44,530 nucleotides of DNA from Ruminiclostridium sp. Its GTDB lineage: Bacteria > Bacillota > Clostridia > Oscillospirales > Ruminococcaceae. The DNA is taken from contig JAGBLA010000131.1 of the NCBI GenBank assembly GCA_017635675.1, positions 1-44,530 of the forward strand. The letters run 5' to 3'. Both the position numbers and the translations under genes were made by a program. The notes below the pieces were generated by a model, which had not been told where the DNA came from, did no database searches, and saw only the letters and a program-made list of their open reading frames with translations. Shown piece by piece: positions 188 to 37,330 of this stretch. Position 1 is the stretch's first letter; each line of letters opens with the position of its first letter.

Positions 188-2629
188 TTACTTTCTCTTC
201 TTGGAGATTGCCATTGCAGCAGCAGCTACGATAGCGGGGATAACTGCGAGGCCTACGCCTGTAGCAGGGTTGCTGTCCTGAGCAGCAGGTGTAACTACAT
301 CTACTGTGCCGGCAGCAGCGGTGTCGTCCTCGTCGTCGTCGGTGATAACAGCAGCGAGATCATCATCGTCAGTGTCGTCATCATCGTCGTCGTCAGCGTC
401 AACTACAGCAGCAGCATCGTCGTCGTCAGCAACAACTGCGTCATCGTCAACAGCAGCAGCAGCGTCAGCGTCAGCAGCGGGAGCATCGTCGTAAGCAAGT
501 GTTACCTTCTGTACGTACATACCGTAAGATCCGTTGTAATCAACATTCTCGCTGTAACCTACGTTCAGACCGTAGTAGATGTCGTGCAGAGTAGCCTTTG
601 TAAGACCGCCGCAATCCTTGAGGTACTGATCGATCTCGAATGTTACAGTACCTGCTGTCTGATCTACCTTTACAGGGCTGTACATCATACCGCTTGTGCT
701 GTCATAGTTGAAGAACAGAGCGAAGTTAGATGTTACAGAACCAGCGCCGGAACCGATAAGACCAACCTCAGTGGAAGGAATACCGCTCGACCAAGCAGCA
801 GAACCGGCAGAAGATGCTGTGGATGTGAATGTGAATGTGATTGTACCGTTATCCTTGTGGTTGAAGAACTCACCAACCTGTGTAGCGAAACCGGAGAAGC
901 CCTCAGGACCTGTACCCTTTGTCATATCGCTATCCTTGTAGGACTGATAGTGGTCAGCATCGTTTACACCACTGTACGAAGCATGGTCGCCTGTGAGAGA
1001 GAGCTGCCATACGTTCTCACGTCTGATAGTAGCTGTACCGTCCTTAGACCAGTCAAGACCGTAGCAAACACTGCTGTTGTTCTGCATACCTTTTCTTATA
1101 GCATTCCAAGATGTTATTGTAGAGCCCTTTGTAACACCTATAGCAGCAGCAGCCCAATCTGTATTAGCCTTTACTGTTGTTACAGGCAGCCAAGCGTAGA
1201 TCTGCTTTGTAGTACCGTTGATCTTGTAAAGGCTTACACCGAAGTCCTTGCCGCCGTAGTTACCGTAGTCGTTCTTAGACTCGAAGTAACCGCCCTGTGC
1301 TACTGCATAAGCAAGCAGAGGAGCTACGCTGTCAGCGTCGCTGAGTGTCTTGCCGGCAATCTTTGATTCATTCTTACCTAACTCAGCAGTACCAAGCATA
1401 TAGCTGCCGGAAAGTGTCTTGATAACATACTTATAAGCCTTGTCTCCACCAGTTACTGTATAGCCAACACCACCAGTAGCATCTGATATTTCGGAGTATT
1501 TGCTCATGTCGATCTGTTCATAAACAGGAGCGTTTTCCATGAATGCGTATACGTTAGTGTATGCTGTTCCGGCAGCAGCAGGAGCAAGAGCAGTACTGCT
1601 GACTACAAAGTAGGAAGGACCAGCTACGGAAGCTCCACCATCCCAAACGTTTGTTGTAACTTTATAACCAACTGTTCCAGTTGCAATACCGTTATCTGCA
1701 GCAACAGTTGTGTAAGTAGCAGCAGCAACACCATACTGTATCGGAGCAGCTGCCGTCGCTGCAGCCGCCGCGCCACCAACAACTGTATTTGCCTGAGTCA
1801 TTGTTAAGCTACTGATTTTGATGTACTGTGTTCTTGTAGCAGTGCTCTTCTTGTAGAAACTATCGGACGGACCAACCTGAGTTGTAACAGCACCGCCGTT
1901 TTTAACAGGACCTGCACCGAGTGCTGCAACTTCTGTAAGAACTTCTGTGATCTCATTAGCAGCCTGAGACTCTACCCACTGAAGATCATTCTGCTGAACG
2001 ACTCTTCTGCCAGCCTGCGTGGTAACACCTGTGAGGTCGCCTATTTTCTTTGTTGCTGTGGTCTCCCATGTTACGCCGTCAGCCTTAAGGTCATGAATAG
2101 TAACTTCGTTGAACAGGAACTTTGCGCCGTCGCCTGATGTCCAGCTCTTATAAATGGTCTCATTCTGTGTCTTGCCCTTTACAGTAGCTGTGAACTGGAG
2201 AGTAGTGATCTTGCTGAAGTAGAAACTTGCGAATTCACCGTCATGGTAAATAGGTGTCTTCTTGTCAAGGATAATAAGAGAATACTGGTTTGTTGTGTTT
2301 GCAACCTTTTCAAACTTGAAATCCTTAGCAACTGTCTGAGCAGCGTTAAGGCTCTGGAAACCCTCAACATGGAGCTTAAGTTCAGAAACTTCAGCATCGC
2401 CAAAAGCATCGTTCATATTAACTATGATCTTCTGCTTCTTTGTCTGGTTGAGGTTCACAGCGATTGCACCGTTAACATCTGCGTTAAGAACAACGTCTGT
2501 CTGGCCCTCGCCACGAGTTACATAAATGTCAAACTCTTTGGTCTGCTGCTCAGCGCTTACAACAGCGGAAAGCGAAGTAACAGCGAGTGTTGCAGCAACG
2601 CCTGCTGCAAGGATCTTGTTAATCTTCAT
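188..2629 (-). CDS. Secreted Asp/Ala-rich surface protein with NPATG cell-wall sorting signal
   Basis: This is a predicted exported, wall-anchored protein of 813 residues. Residues 1-26 form a clean signal peptide (MKINK, then a hydrophobic stretch, cleavage after AVVSA). The body (about 27-713) is rich in Ser, Thr, Gly, Ala and Tyr and matches no domain I recognise. Residues about 714-770 are a low-complexity Asp/Ala tract encoded by GAC/GAT and GCT/GCA triplet runs. The C-terminus has the full sorting-signal layout: NPATG at 787-791, 17 hydrophobic residues, then SKKRK. Anchoring by a sortase is inferred from that layout. An in-frame ATG at 2654-2656 would add nine residues, but neither start has a clear ribosome site; I chose the one giving a normal signal peptide. 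Codon choice (GCT, GTT, ATC rather than GCG, ATA) resembles the ribosomal genes of this window, suggesting high expression. Function unknown. Confidence 0.8.
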   Translation of the reverse strand: MKINKILAAGVAATLAVTSLSAVVSAEQQTKEFDIYVTRGEGQTDVVLNADVNGAIAVNLNQTKKQKIIVNMNDAFGDAEVSELKLHVEGFQSLNAAQTVAKDFKFEKVANTTNQYSLIILDKKTPIYHDGEFASFYFSKITTLQFTATVKGKTQNETIYKSWTSGDGAKFLFNEVTIHDLKADGVTWETTATKKIGDLTGVTTQAGRRVVQQNDLQWVESQAANEITEVLTEVAALGAGPVKNGGAVTTQVGPSDSFYKKSTATRTQYIKISSLTMTQANTVVGGAAAAATAAAPIQYGVAAATYTTVAADNGIATGTVGYKVTTNVWDGGASVAGPSYFVVSSTALAPAAAGTAYTNVYAFMENAPVYEQIDMSKYSEISDATGGVGYTVTGGDKAYKYVIKTLSGSYMLGTAELGKNESKIAGKTLSDADSVAPLLAYAVAQGGYFESKNDYGNYGGKDFGVSLYKINGTTKQIYAWLPVTTVKANTDWAAAAIGVTKGSTITSWNAIRKGMQNNSSVCYGLDWSKDGTATIRRENVWQLSLTGDHASYSGVNDADHYQSYKDSDMTKGTGPEGFSGFATQVGEFFNHKDNGTITFTFTSTASSAGSAAWSSGIPSTEVGLIGSGAGSVTSNFALFFNYDSTSGMMYSPVKVDQTAGTVTFEIDQYLKDCGGLTKATLHDIYYGLNVGYSENVDYNGSYGMYVQKVTLAYDDAPAADADAAAAVDDDAVVADDDDAAAVVDADDDDDDDTDDDDLAAVITDDDEDDTAAAGTVDVVTPAAQDSNPATGVGLAVIPAIVAAAAMAISKKRK

Positions 2630-2675
2630 GATTAAACTTGACAAGCCGCTTTTCATGCGGGCTGAAAACGCAGAA

Positions 2676-2693
2676 TGTATGAGAGGTGTAGGA
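2676..2693 (+). repeat. Left direct repeat flanking the integrase (candidate att site)
   Basis: The sequence TGTATGAGAGGTGTAGGA recurs at 4077-4094 with one mismatch and in the same orientation. This copy lies in the presumed 5' leader of the minus-strand surface protein gene, 47 bp upstream of its start codon. The repeat pair encloses exactly one gene, a tyrosine recombinase, with its own promoter and an upstream terminator. Its role as an attachment site is inferred. Confidence 0.6.
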
Positions 2694-2708
2694 ATAAAAA
2701 TGACGAAC

Positions 2709-2750
2709 CCCGCGGCTTCGGAGCACTTCCAAAAGCCGCGGGATTTTTTT
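2709..2750 (+). terminator. Intrinsic terminator upstream of the integrase promoter
   Basis: A 10-bp stem (CCCGCGGCTT at 2709-2718 with AAGCCGCGGG at 2733-2742) is followed by ATTTTTTT, so it terminates plus-strand transcription. No plus-strand gene lies upstream in the window, so it probably insulates the integrase promoter from outside read-through. On the minus strand the same stem is followed only by a weak T-rich stretch and may sit in the leader of the surface protein mRNA. Confidence 0.75.
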
Positions 2751-2764
2751 GTGAGTTTTTCAAA

Positions 2765-2794
2765 TTGACAAACGAAGTTAAGGCATTATATAAT
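2765..2794 (+). promoter_or_regulatory. Sigma-A type promoter of the integrase
   Basis: TTGACA at 2765-2770 and TATAAT at 2789-2794 are both perfect consensus hexamers with 18-bp spacing. The predicted transcript starts about 28 nt before the integrase start codon and reads directly into its ribosome site. Confidence 0.75.
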
Positions 2795-2829
2795 TATTGT
2801 ACATCACTTTTTGCAAGGAGGTAGATAAT

Positions 2830-4044
2830 ATGTTGATACTTTGTCCCGAATGTAAGCTGCAGGTGAGCAGCTCGGCGCTAAGCTGTCCCCACTGCGGGTA
2901 CCCGATGAAAAAGGAGAGCGGCGCAAAGCGCGGTAAAAAGCGTATGCGGCTCCCAAACGGTTTCGGACAGATAACCGAGATAAAGGGTAAGAACCTCCGC
3001 AACCCGTTCCGCGTGATGATAAACGCGGGAAAGACGCCCGACGGCAAGCCGATAAGCAAGCTTCTGAGACCCCGTGCCTACTTCCCGACGTACAATGACG
3101 CTTATGCGGCGCTTGTGGAGTACAACCGCTGTCCCTACGACATCGAAGCGGACATCACGGTGAAGGAGCTTTACGAGCTGTGGTTTGAGGAGTATCGGCG
3201 CTCTATCTCGTCAAAAACGAGCATAACCCAGACCGAAGCCGCGTGGAAATACTGCACCGAGGTGTACGAAATGCGCGTCAAGGCGCTTCGCCCGCGGCAC
3301 ATAAAGAAGTGCATCGACGAGGGCACGGCTCAGGTGCGCGGGGTGACGCGGAAGGCTCCGCCCCTTGTCCAGTCACGCATAAAGACCCTGTTCAATCTCA
3401 TGCTCGACTATGCGGTGGAGTTTGAGATAGTTGAGATAAATCACGCCCGTTCCTTCAAGCTCTCGGACGAGATAATAAAGAGCGTCACGACGGTAAAGAG
3501 GGAGCACATCATATATACGGAAGACGAGATGAAGACCTTGTGGGAGTACGAAAGCAATCTGTATGTGAGCATGGTGATCGTGCAGTGCTATTCGGGCTGG
3601 CGGCCGCAGGAGCTTCTTACGCTCAAAGTCGAGGACGTCGATCTTGACGGCATGACGTTCCGCGGCGGGCTTAAGACCGAAGCGGGAAAGGATCGCGTAG
3701 TTCCGATACACAGCAGGATAGCGGGCATCGTCCGCCGACAGTATGAAGCGGCTGTCGCGCGCGGCGGGATATATCTTTTCGGCAGGGCGTCAAGCGGCGC
3801 TCTGCCGATCTCTTATATGCAGTTCTGCCGCGCGTTCACCGCCGTGAATGACAGCATCGGCGGAAACAGCGAGCATCGTCTTCACGACGGGCGCAAGCAT
3901 TTCGTGAGCGCTGCCAAGCGCTGCGGCGTAGATGAATACGCGATAAAGTACATGGTGGGTCACAAGATAAACGACATCACCGAGGCGGTATATACCAAGC
4001 GCGACCCCGACTGGCTGCGCTGTCAGATCGAGAAGATCGTGTGA
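2830..4044 (+). CDS. Tyrosine recombinase (phage-type integrase) with N-terminal zinc ribbon
   Basis: This 404-residue site-specific recombinase should cut and rejoin DNA at paired short sites through a Tyr nucleophile. The start at 2830 follows AAGGAGGT at 2815-2822; an upstream in-frame ATG at 2797 lacks such a site. Residues 5-22 hold a four-Cys zinc ribbon (CPEC and CPHC). Residues about 40-100 resemble the arm-binding domain of Tn916-like integrases, 105-215 the core-binding domain and 225-404 the catalytic domain. The catalytic set is complete: Arg258 in GWRPQE, His352 and Arg355 in LHDGRKH, His378 in MVGHK and Tyr388. It stands alone, with no excisionase, relaxase or phage genes nearby, and is flanked by 18-bp direct repeats. 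The zinc ribbon at the N-terminus is an extra feature whose role is unknown. Confidence 0.9.
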   Translation: MLILCPECKLQVSSSALSCPHCGYPMKKESGAKRGKKRMRLPNGFGQITEIKGKNLRNPFRVMINAGKTPDGKPISKLLRPRAYFPTYNDAYAALVEYNRCPYDIEADITVKELYELWFEEYRRSISSKTSITQTEAAWKYCTEVYEMRVKALRPRHIKKCIDEGTAQVRGVTRKAPPLVQSRIKTLFNLMLDYAVEFEIVEINHARSFKLSDEIIKSVTTVKREHIIYTEDEMKTLWEYESNLYVSMVIVQCYSGWRPQELLTLKVEDVDLDGMTFRGGLKTEAGKDRVVPIHSRIAGIVRRQYEAAVARGGIYLFGRASSGALPISYMQFCRAFTAVNDSIGGNSEHRLHDGRKHFVSAAKRCGVDEYAIKYMVGHKINDITEAVYTKRDPDWLRCQIEKIV

Positions 4045-4047
4045 CGC

Positions 4048-4094
4048 GCGGTGTAGGAGCTGCGGTGTAGGAACGGTGTATGAGCGGTGTAGGA
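4048..4094 (+). repeat. Short tandem repeat cluster GCGGTGTAGGA with right direct repeat
   Basis: Immediately after the integrase stop codon the unit GCGGTGTAGGA occurs at 4048-4058, 4062-4072 and 4084-4094, with a degenerate unit (ACGGTGTATGA) at 4073-4083. Spacing is 14, 11 and 11 bp. The last two units together make TGTATGAGCGGTGTAGGA (4077-4094), which matches 2676-2693 at 17 of 18 positions. The cluster ends 8 bp before the stop codon of the convergent acyltransferase gene. Spacing near one helical turn suggests protein binding, perhaps the recombinase; this is inference. Confidence 0.65.
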
Positions 4095-4102
4095 GTTTAC
4101 GC

Positions 4103-5221
4103 TCACGGGGCGGTTTTTCTCTGCGTGAGCCTGTCTCTGAGGACGGCTATGCCGCAGCTGCACGCTATGGCGGATATCTGCCCGGCGAGGGATCTGAGGA
4201 ATATTTCCGGGGTCACGGTGAGCCCCGCGTTCTCGACATACCACATAGGCCCGGGCTTTATGTAGGTTTGCAGGATATCCGCCGCGATCATGCCGAAGAA
4301 GCAGTGGCACAGCAGTATCGTGAGGGTGTGCTGTCCTATCCACACGAGCCCCCGTGACAGGAGCCGTGTCTTTGCGGCAAGCACCGCGAGCGCGTAATAT
4401 CCTGCGAATCCCACGGGGAGCTGTACGAGGGTGAGCAGGATATCGAACCCGCCCACGTATCCGAGCTGTCCGCGGTAATAGCTTTCGTCGCCGCCGAGCA
4501 TGAATATGCCGAAGTGGGCGGCAAGGCAGATAACAGCGATAAGCGCCGTCACGGGGATATTGAAGCGCCATTCACGGTTCAGCAGTCCGCTGTCGCGGAG
4601 CTGTGCGCCGATAAGCATGAACGCGGTGAACAGCGGTATGAGCTGTAACTGGTGGGGCAGGGGAGAAACGAAGATGTAAAGCGGTATCTGCACCGCGGTC
4701 AGCGCGCCGACCGCGCACAGTCGGAACGTTCTGCCCTTTCTTGCGCACAGCTGTGCGGCGGGGAAGAACACAAGCTCGGTGAACGCCATTGTCCAGATGA
4801 ACCATGAGGGTGAGATGTTGTTGAACAGCACGCCGCCGCTGCCCCATTCGGGGGATATATGCGTGCAAAGCTCCGGTCGGAGCGCCGTTACCGCGAGGTC
4901 ATGCCACCAGTCCGCGAAGGTATAGCCGTGAACGAGGGCGCAGTAGGCTCCGCCGACAGCGAACAGCGCCGCGTCGATGATGACCGCGGGCAGTACAAGC
5001 GTTCTGAGCCTGTGAAGATAATTCTGCACGGGCGTTCTTTTTCCCGCTGAGAACGAGTATCCCGCCATCATGAGGTAAACGGATATCAGGAACCACCCCG
5101 CCGCACGGAGCAGATAGTCCGCGGCGCCGTTCTGCGGGCGGTACACCAGGTGTATGACCGAGATGAGCAGTATTCCCGCGCCTTTGATGATATCGAGCTC
5201 TTTTATGCGTTTTCCTGCCAT
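4103..5221 (-). CDS. Membrane acyltransferase, acyltransferase-3 (OafA/WecH-like) family
   Basis: The 372-residue protein has about ten hydrophobic membrane segments and the family's typical N-terminus, ELDIIKGAGILLISVIHL, which places the conserved His at residue 24. Members of acyltransferase family 3 move acetyl or other acyl groups onto extracytoplasmic sugars or envelope glycans; the substrate here cannot be told. GAGGGTGATGAA before the ATG supports the start. The gene lies 18 bp downstream of the split phosphatase gene on the same strand and is probably cotranscribed with it. Its 3' end abuts the right repeat of the candidate integrase element, with only 8 bp between stop codon and repeat. 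I see no terminator after it. Confidence 0.85.
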   Translation of the reverse strand: MAGKRIKELDIIKGAGILLISVIHLVYRPQNGAADYLLRAAGWFLISVYLMMAGYSFSAGKRTPVQNYLHRLRTLVLPAVIIDAALFAVGGAYCALVHGYTFADWWHDLAVTALRPELCTHISPEWGSGGVLFNNISPSWFIWTMAFTELVFFPAAQLCARKGRTFRLCAVGALTAVQIPLYIFVSPLPHQLQLIPLFTAFMLIGAQLRDSGLLNREWRFNIPVTALIAVICLAAHFGIFMLGGDESYYRGQLGYVGGFDILLTLVQLPVGFAGYYALAVLAAKTRLLSRGLVWIGQHTLTILLCHCFFGMIAADILQTYIKPGPMWYVENAGLTVTPEIFLRSLAGQISAIACSCGIAVLRDRLTQRKTAP

Positions 5222-36962: not shown

Positions 36963-37330
36963 CGCGGGACGAGCTGTGGCAGCGCGCCATGGAGCTCGGA
37001 GCGGCGGCGGGCTGCCACCAGCGTGCGGACAGGAGCTTCTTCCTCGGGGAGTATCAGTTCCCTGTGTGCGCAAGATGTACGGGCGTATTCGTCGGGCAGA
37101 CGGCGGCGCTCGGTATGCTTGCGGCGCGAAAGCGTCTGCCGCTGTGGGCGGCGGCGGGTCTTCTGCTGATAATGGGAGCGGACTGGTTCGTACAGTATAT
37201 CGGGCTCAGGGAGTCAACGAACATCCGGCGGCTTGTGACAGGTATCATGGGCGGCATCGGAGTTGTGTTCATCTGGGCGAGCTTGGTGTGCTTGGTGATA
37301 AAACTGCTGAAAAACGGTAAGAAGAGCTGA
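36959..37330 (+). CDS. DUF2085-like small membrane protein
   Basis: From the overlapping GTG start the protein has 123 residues: a Cys/His-rich N-terminus (GCHQRADRSFFLGEYQFPVCARCTG) typical of DUF2085 proteins, then three hydrophobic segments. An ATG at 36989 is an alternative start. The conserved Cys and His residues suggest metal or redox chemistry at the membrane, but no function is established for the family. Last gene of the coupled group, with its stop codon inside the following terminator stem. Confidence 0.75.
   Translation: MTRDELWQRAMELGAAAGCHQRADRSFFLGEYQFPVCARCTGVFVGQTAALGMLAARKRLPLWAAAGLLLIMGADWFVQYIGLRESTNIRRLVTGIMGGIGVVFIWASLVCLVIKLLKNGKKS

Follow-up and report, generated by a model that had tools for sequence, protein, structure and literature searches.

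On a contig of 44,530 nucleotides from Ruminiclostridium sp. (JAGBLA010000131.1 of assembly GCA_017635675.1; this whole stretch is called the window below), a lone tyrosine integrase gene has a surface-protein gene on one side and an acyltransferase-like gene on the other, and is flanked by two copies of an 18-bp sequence. This arrangement raises the question whether the 1.4-kb segment between the repeats is a mobile element that excises at these repeats, as the initial annotation had proposed, or whether the repeats serve the integrase in another way. By comparing the locus with related genomes of the genus and with viral contigs, we found that the repeats are very probably the arm sites of an integrase that derives from a phage and is maintained under constraint. 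We give about even chances to the reading that this domesticated phage integrase acts at the start codon of a variable surface-protein gene to switch the protein that is made.

The repeats and the arrays behind the integrase

The two 18-bp copies (2676-2693 and 4077-4094), located on the same strand and differing by one mismatch, are real and beyond chance, with three matches found compared to 0.02 expected when up to three mismatches were allowed. They exist as proposed, but not as the ends of an element: the true repeat unit is 11 bp long and the 18-mer spans two units of an array. The integrase gene and its two arrays are:

2675-2696, plus strand: P arm, two 11-bp units, containing the left 18-bp repeat (repeat search)
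2830-4044, plus strand: zinc-ribbon tyrosine integrase of 404 amino acids (aa), lone and intact (domain search, alignment, ratio of nonsynonymous to synonymous substitution (dN/dS) and tree)
4051-4097, plus strand: P' arm, four units in the order unit, 3 bp, three units, containing the right 18-bp repeat (repeat search)

The P' arm starts 6 bp after the stop codon of the integrase gene, and this layout recurs behind the integrase in phage relatives (e.g. L088, L097, L077 and L083). Exact matches to TGTAKGANNRNTGTAKGA were present in only two of the 71 genomes of the genus, being the window's own genome (G000) and G018. The integrase of the latter is 53% identical to that of the window and has four units directly behind its stop codon, while a second array of two units is found 51.5 kb away, beside genes that by eye are phage tail- and lysin-like. 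A 16-bp direct repeat, CTTACTTATTAGCTTC, occurs at 37329 and 89041, outside both arrays, at 48 bp from the two-unit arm and at about 80 bp from the other array. With the integrase at one end of this 51.7-kb stretch, the core at both ends and phage-like genes inside (by eye), the stretch looks like an ordinary prophage. Because the 16-bp core lies outside the arrays, the latter occupy arm-type positions, and excision at the 18-bp repeats was rejected on the same ground. In the window, a comparison of 2401-2830 with 4031-4700 yielded no exact direct repeat of at least 9 bp that fits a core pair, the exceptions being the 11-bp units themselves and one 9-mer (2578/4531) within two coding regions. 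The window has no right-hand core and hence no pair of left and right attachment sites (attL/attR).

Among the viral contigs, taken from IMG/VR, five hold both an array and a relative of the window integrase. Arms on both sides of a core, as in G018, are present in L076 and L082, where the integrase is followed on a single strand by four units, about 150-160 bp and two units, and partly in L077 and L083, which show the same order with one exact far unit. In L079 (2140-2340), the whole arm-core-arm site behind the integrase is reversed relative to it and on the opposite strand, with the two-unit arm nearest to the integrase and the four-unit arm farther away. At least two loose units within 150 nucleotides (nt) behind the integrase gene were counted at 27 of 38 genome loci compared to 1 of 38 in the reversed-sequence control, and at 42 of 64 viral loci compared to 0 of 64, after leaving out 16 of 80 viral loci that were too short. 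Both scans relied on zinc-ribbon peptide patterns, by which the relatives found carry a zinc ribbon by construction, and kept the best 80 of 114 and the best 80 of 123 relatives; the top viral relative among the best 80 is 58% identical to the window integrase. Because a prophage with a related integrase has the arrays flanking its core and viral contigs have them behind the integrase, the 11-bp arrays are best read as arm-type binding sites of the integrase and not as crossover points. An integron-like reading, with cassettes bounded by arrays, was dropped because the viral contigs show arrays on both sides of one site.

Further copies of the repeat, for which the initial annotation had suggested a search, do occur in G000, as 11-bp units: at C193:1919-2006 (L073), eight units in exact register, one of them imperfect, follow the stop of an amidase-like gene (426 aa) and precede the start of a gene for an ABC-F-like ATPase. 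Prophages of this integrase family (L104, L107, L108, L110-L112, L116, L118 and L124) seem by eye to be inserted at a common place, the 3' end of a conserved gene that codes for 332 aa in G018 and presumably belongs to the GGGtGRT family.

An integrase retained outside a phage

A search for the integrase in the 71 genomes (E <=1e-40) matched seven of them, four at 53% identity or more: G000 itself, G088 (88% identical to the window integrase), G076 (75%; its integrase contig is the viral contig L084) and G018. In three species of the same genus, represented by G000, G088 and G076, the gene is intact and stands alone, with one match of this type in each of the three genomes. Its neighbours are a surface-protein gene and the acyltransferase-like gene in the window, a surface-protein gene and a recJ-like gene in G076, and an FMN-binding-like gene and rplM-rpsI in G088 (names by eye). 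The three integrases form one clade with a support of 100/100, positioned within the phage-type integrases and next to the viral contig of 58% identity. They are under purifying selection, with dN/dS values (NG86) for the three pairs of 0.0755/0.961 = 0.079, 0.188/1.61 = 0.117 and 0.170/1.85 = 0.092, in which dS, at about 1 or above, is near saturation. The strong constraint and the single clade from which the phage has been lost thus indicate that the integrase in these three species is a retained host gene rather than a fresh phage remnant.

These data bear on two other explanations. In the first, the 1.4-kb segment would be a minimal mobile element that excises and integrates alone. The three neighbourhoods of the lone integrase in three species would fit such an element, but we consider it highly improbable, as no core repeat is found on its right side, each genome has one match only, two of the three copies share their left neighbour, and the copies differ at a dS near 1 or more, with no sign of recent spread. 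The proposal of a mobile segment is not supported, given the missing core pair in the window and the outside position of the core in G018. In the second explanation, a phage integrated at the start codon of the surface gene and separated it from the promoter; of this phage, only the integrase and the arms would remain. The phage origin of the integrase clade, the missing right-hand core, the partial decay of the arms in G076 and G088 and the different neighbourhoods of the lone integrase in the different species are in line with such a decayed prophage. Set against it are the dN/dS values of 0.08-0.12, although a dS near 1 or above saturates, and the features of the surface genes described in the next section, and we judge it unlikely.

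The remaining features around the integrase gene are:

2706-2750, strand not assigned: G+C-rich hairpin terminator with a T run, between the surface gene and the integrase gene (sequence inspection)
2765-2794, plus strand: sigma-70 promoter of the integrase gene, a perfect TTGACA-18-TATAAT (promoter scan)
4103-5221, minus strand: chromosomal neighbour coding for an acyltransferase-like membrane protein (Pfam match, under the curated threshold)

The single intact zinc-ribbon integrase between the repeats, the terminator and the promoter were thus all found as annotated initially; the terminator scan omits the hairpin on the plus strand, its 14-nt loop exceeding the limit of the scan. Residues R258, K282, H352, R355, H378 and Y388 of the integrase are invariant in 55 of 55 aligned rows and presumably represent the R-K-H-R-H-Y catalytic set of tyrosine integrases, while the stretch between the zinc ribbon and the SAM-like domain, searched for an N-terminal arm-binding domain, matched no Pfam domain. 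NCBIfam gave no name above cut-off for the integrase, the surface protein or the acyltransferase, and Rfam gave no match in the window at gathering cut-offs. None of 19 further open reading frames (ORFs) of the window that were scanned matches a Pfam phage family, two of them matching nothing, and the contig also carries polyamine, cell-division and ribosomal genes. The acyltransferase, for which five related loci align across residues 1-369 of 372, is apparently not part of the system, because these five loci have other genes downstream of it. No clean empty site could be recognised either upstream of rplM in 15 loci or downstream of the five acyltransferase relatives, as these regions vary too much.

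Active and silent copies of the surface-protein gene

The gene to the left of the integrase, and the site at its start codon, are:

188-2629, minus strand: gene for a variable surface protein of 813 aa, class B (silent) (ORF open, no Shine-Dalgarno sequence, no promoter found)
2604-2637, minus strand: start-codon site TTTAATCATGAAGATTAACAAGATCCTTGCAGC, proposed crossover core (genus-wide pattern search)

By eye, the encoded protein has a signal-peptide-like start and a C-terminal NPATG, which we take to be a wall-anchor motif, followed by a hydrophobic stretch and KKRK. The promoter scan showed no promoter-like site between the terminator at 2706-2750 and the start codon. The initial annotation had supposed that removal of the segment could let the gene be read from the acyltransferase operon; since the gene has no Shine-Dalgarno sequence, such read-through would not obviously yield the protein.

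The start-codon site TTTAATCATGAAGATTAACAAGATCCTTGCAGC was found at 16 places in 12 of the 71 genomes, compared to none in the reversed control, and these places fall into two classes. Class A consists of 11 places, one each in 11 genomes, all 11 preceded by the Shine-Dalgarno sequence AGGAGG; their upstream region is, where long enough, common to the members and contains promoter-like hexamers by eye. In each of 12 genomes this region has a single match of nearly full length, and 15 more genomes have only short matches. In G088, G002 and G011, the single promoter region lies behind a gene for a membrane protein of 275 aa. Class B consists of five places (the window, G076:C206, G088:C16, G002:C53 and G002:C191), none with a Shine-Dalgarno sequence, and in all five arm sequence is located exactly 45 bases upstream of the start codon, as two units in G000, G076 and G088 and as one clear unit in G002. 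With G002:C53 cut after 73 nt, four class B ORFs are left to assess, and all of them are open: G076 has 884 aa, G002:C191 870 aa, the window 813 aa and G088 at least 767 aa, up to the contig end. One promoter-linked copy together with one or more promoterless copies is present in G088, G076 and G002. The three genomes with a lone integrase are all among the four class B genomes of the 71 (hypergeometric, 7e-5; 0.018 within the 12 site-bearing genomes), an association that ignores the kinship of the genomes. The integrase gene adjoins the silent gene in G000 and G076.

Active and silent copies were compared in four within-genome pairs from three genomes. Between class A and class B, 6-7 of 20 positions are identical from -28 to -9, 7-8 of 8 from -8 to -1 and 20 of 20 in the first 20 coding nt, so that identity begins sharply at -8. 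Over the first 66 coding nt, the two classes are identical at 66 of 66 positions in both G088 and G076 and at 62-63 of 66 in G002, whereas G088 and G076 share 58 of 66 with each other for either class. Because identity between the classes within a genome thus exceeds that within a class between genomes, the 5' ends of active and silent copies appear to evolve together in G088 and G076. The middles of the genes are mostly 35-70% identical in 100-nt bins, although G088 has some bins of 74-87% towards the 5' end. Over the final 300 nt compared, identity is 87-99% in G088 and 98-100% in G002; the class A copy of G076 is cut before its 3' end. Such a pattern is that of a surface protein which varies and is expressed from one site. 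The open class B ORFs, the two class B copies of G002 and the joint evolution of the 5' ends further argue against the decayed prophage. Of the initial annotation, the tie between the integrase segment and whether the adjacent wall protein is expressed is supported, while the excising segment is not.

Two other recombinase genes were observed in these genomes. In G076, some 7 kb separate the surface gene that has the promoter from a different gene, integrase-like by eye (L261, G076:C257, 9456-10880). In G002, at C12, 417-4384 (L260), a zinc-ribbon tyrosine recombinase gene of 31% identity adjoins genes that by eye are HsdM- and HsdS-like genes of a type I restriction system, and is perhaps an hsdS shuffler.

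A proposed exchange at the start codon

In the mechanism that we propose, the integrase stems from a temperate phage with 11-bp arm units flanking the core of its attachment (att) site. It is now a host gene, and its two-unit arm is kept at an unvarying distance from the start codons of the surface-gene copies that have no promoter, while one copy elsewhere bears the promoter and the ribosome-binding site. The start-codon region would be used as core, and recombination of a silent site with the active site would bring a new surface protein under the single promoter. As the arm would remain on that side of the silent site which does not code for the protein, the layout would be the same before and after the reaction. 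That a one-armed att site at the silent start codons recombines in this way with an armless active site, reversibly and without a directionality factor, we regard as possible at somewhat less than even chances; the exchange would return the same two site types and therefore be reversible without an excision factor. Active and silent copies would be in opposite orientation. In G002 they may be convergent by synteny with rplM, as inversion requires, because the class A gene of G011, about 2 kb upstream of rplM, has the same orientation as rplM and a class B gene of G002 is divergent from it. In both G002 and G088, the contigs end where these surface genes end.

Exchange mediated by RecA is a live rival to switching by the integrase. 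Conversion would then proceed through the identical 5' and 3' ends, with the integrase serving something else or only regulating; the sap genes of Campylobacter fetus are a parallel of the RecA type. The identity between the classes extends beyond a core, over at least 66 nt of the 5' end and hundreds of nt of the 3' end, and class B genes occur in G002 although the integrase does not, both of which such conversion would accommodate. It leaves unexplained the fixed upstream arm distance of the silent copies as well as the fact that two species retain the integrase adjacent to a silent gene, and we hold it to be rather unlikely.

Several findings weigh against the proposed switch by the integrase. 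The identity past the start codon and its return at the 3' end would not result from a single crossover at the start codon, and the homogenised ends point to conversion beyond one crossover. G002, 98% complete, has its two class B genes and no close integrase (best 31%), the integrase of G088 is not adjacent to the class B gene, and no class A copy was found in G000 (85% complete, 7% contaminated). The window is missing the right-hand core, the P' arm and the arm beside the integrase are decayed in G088, and those of G076 are partly so. In G018, 48 bp separate the P arm and the edge of the core. The corresponding distance in the window is about 37 bp when measured from the edge of active/silent identity, or 47 bp when a CTTC motif close to the start codon is aligned, which makes the geometry similar, not identical. 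The three species with a lone integrase are related, and their shared layout represents one history and not three independent events. Two loose units behind the integrase are missing in 11 of 38 genome and 22 of 64 viral relatives, including integrases without any array at that place. Conversely, three of eight array-bearing viral contigs (L078, L080 and L081) show no integrase relative in the sequence examined, and other integrases may use the same arm motif; the C193 array of G000, with no integrase or core alongside, is unexplained. Finally, no switched junction was found in the assemblies, of which there is one per species.

With the slpA/slpB system of Lactobacillus acidophilus, the proposed switch would share one active and one silent surface-protein gene that exchange places; there they swap by inversion of a chromosomal segment (PMC6176008), and Boot et al. 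1996 reportedly dealt with this interchange. No phage integrase with arm sites is known to act in that system, and here the copies are found on different contigs. The vpma/vsp genes of Mycoplasma agalactiae and M. bovis are described as having a unique promoter, silent genes whose 5' untranslated regions are proposed to contain the recombination sites, and Xer1 nearby (PMC2268961). The unique promoter, the silent genes and a nearby tyrosine recombinase are similar here, but that system is a multigene lipoprotein locus, whereas here the copies are spread over several contigs and the recombinase is phage-derived and has arm sites. Also described are RecV, a tyrosine recombinase acting on the switch upstream of cwpV in C. 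difficile, and the Rin shufflon of bifidophages, with a tyrosine recombinase that is reported to be without an arm-binding domain. Rin and Tsr15 of Bacteroides fragilis are comparable as tyrosine recombinases that vary surface or receptor-binding proteins and differ in that arm sites are kept here. By full-length kinship, the closest to the window integrase are those of Faecalibacterium phage FP_oengus (45% identity) and of the G018 prophage, the latter also sharing the zinc ribbon, catalytic residues, arm arrays and core; both reside in phages or prophages, which the window integrase does not. The passages, titles and beginnings of abstracts that we searched contained no arm-bearing integrase acting as a surface switch.

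If the proposal is true, a phage integrase would have turned into a surface switch of its host while retaining its arm sites, and its one-armed att layout would predict reversibility. For annotation, the 18-bp repeats around this lone integrase, read as binding sites and not as element ends, illustrate a trap in the recognition of small mobile elements. For the uncultured relatives in the gut and rumen, the variable surface proteins could be what phages or the immune system of the animal see.
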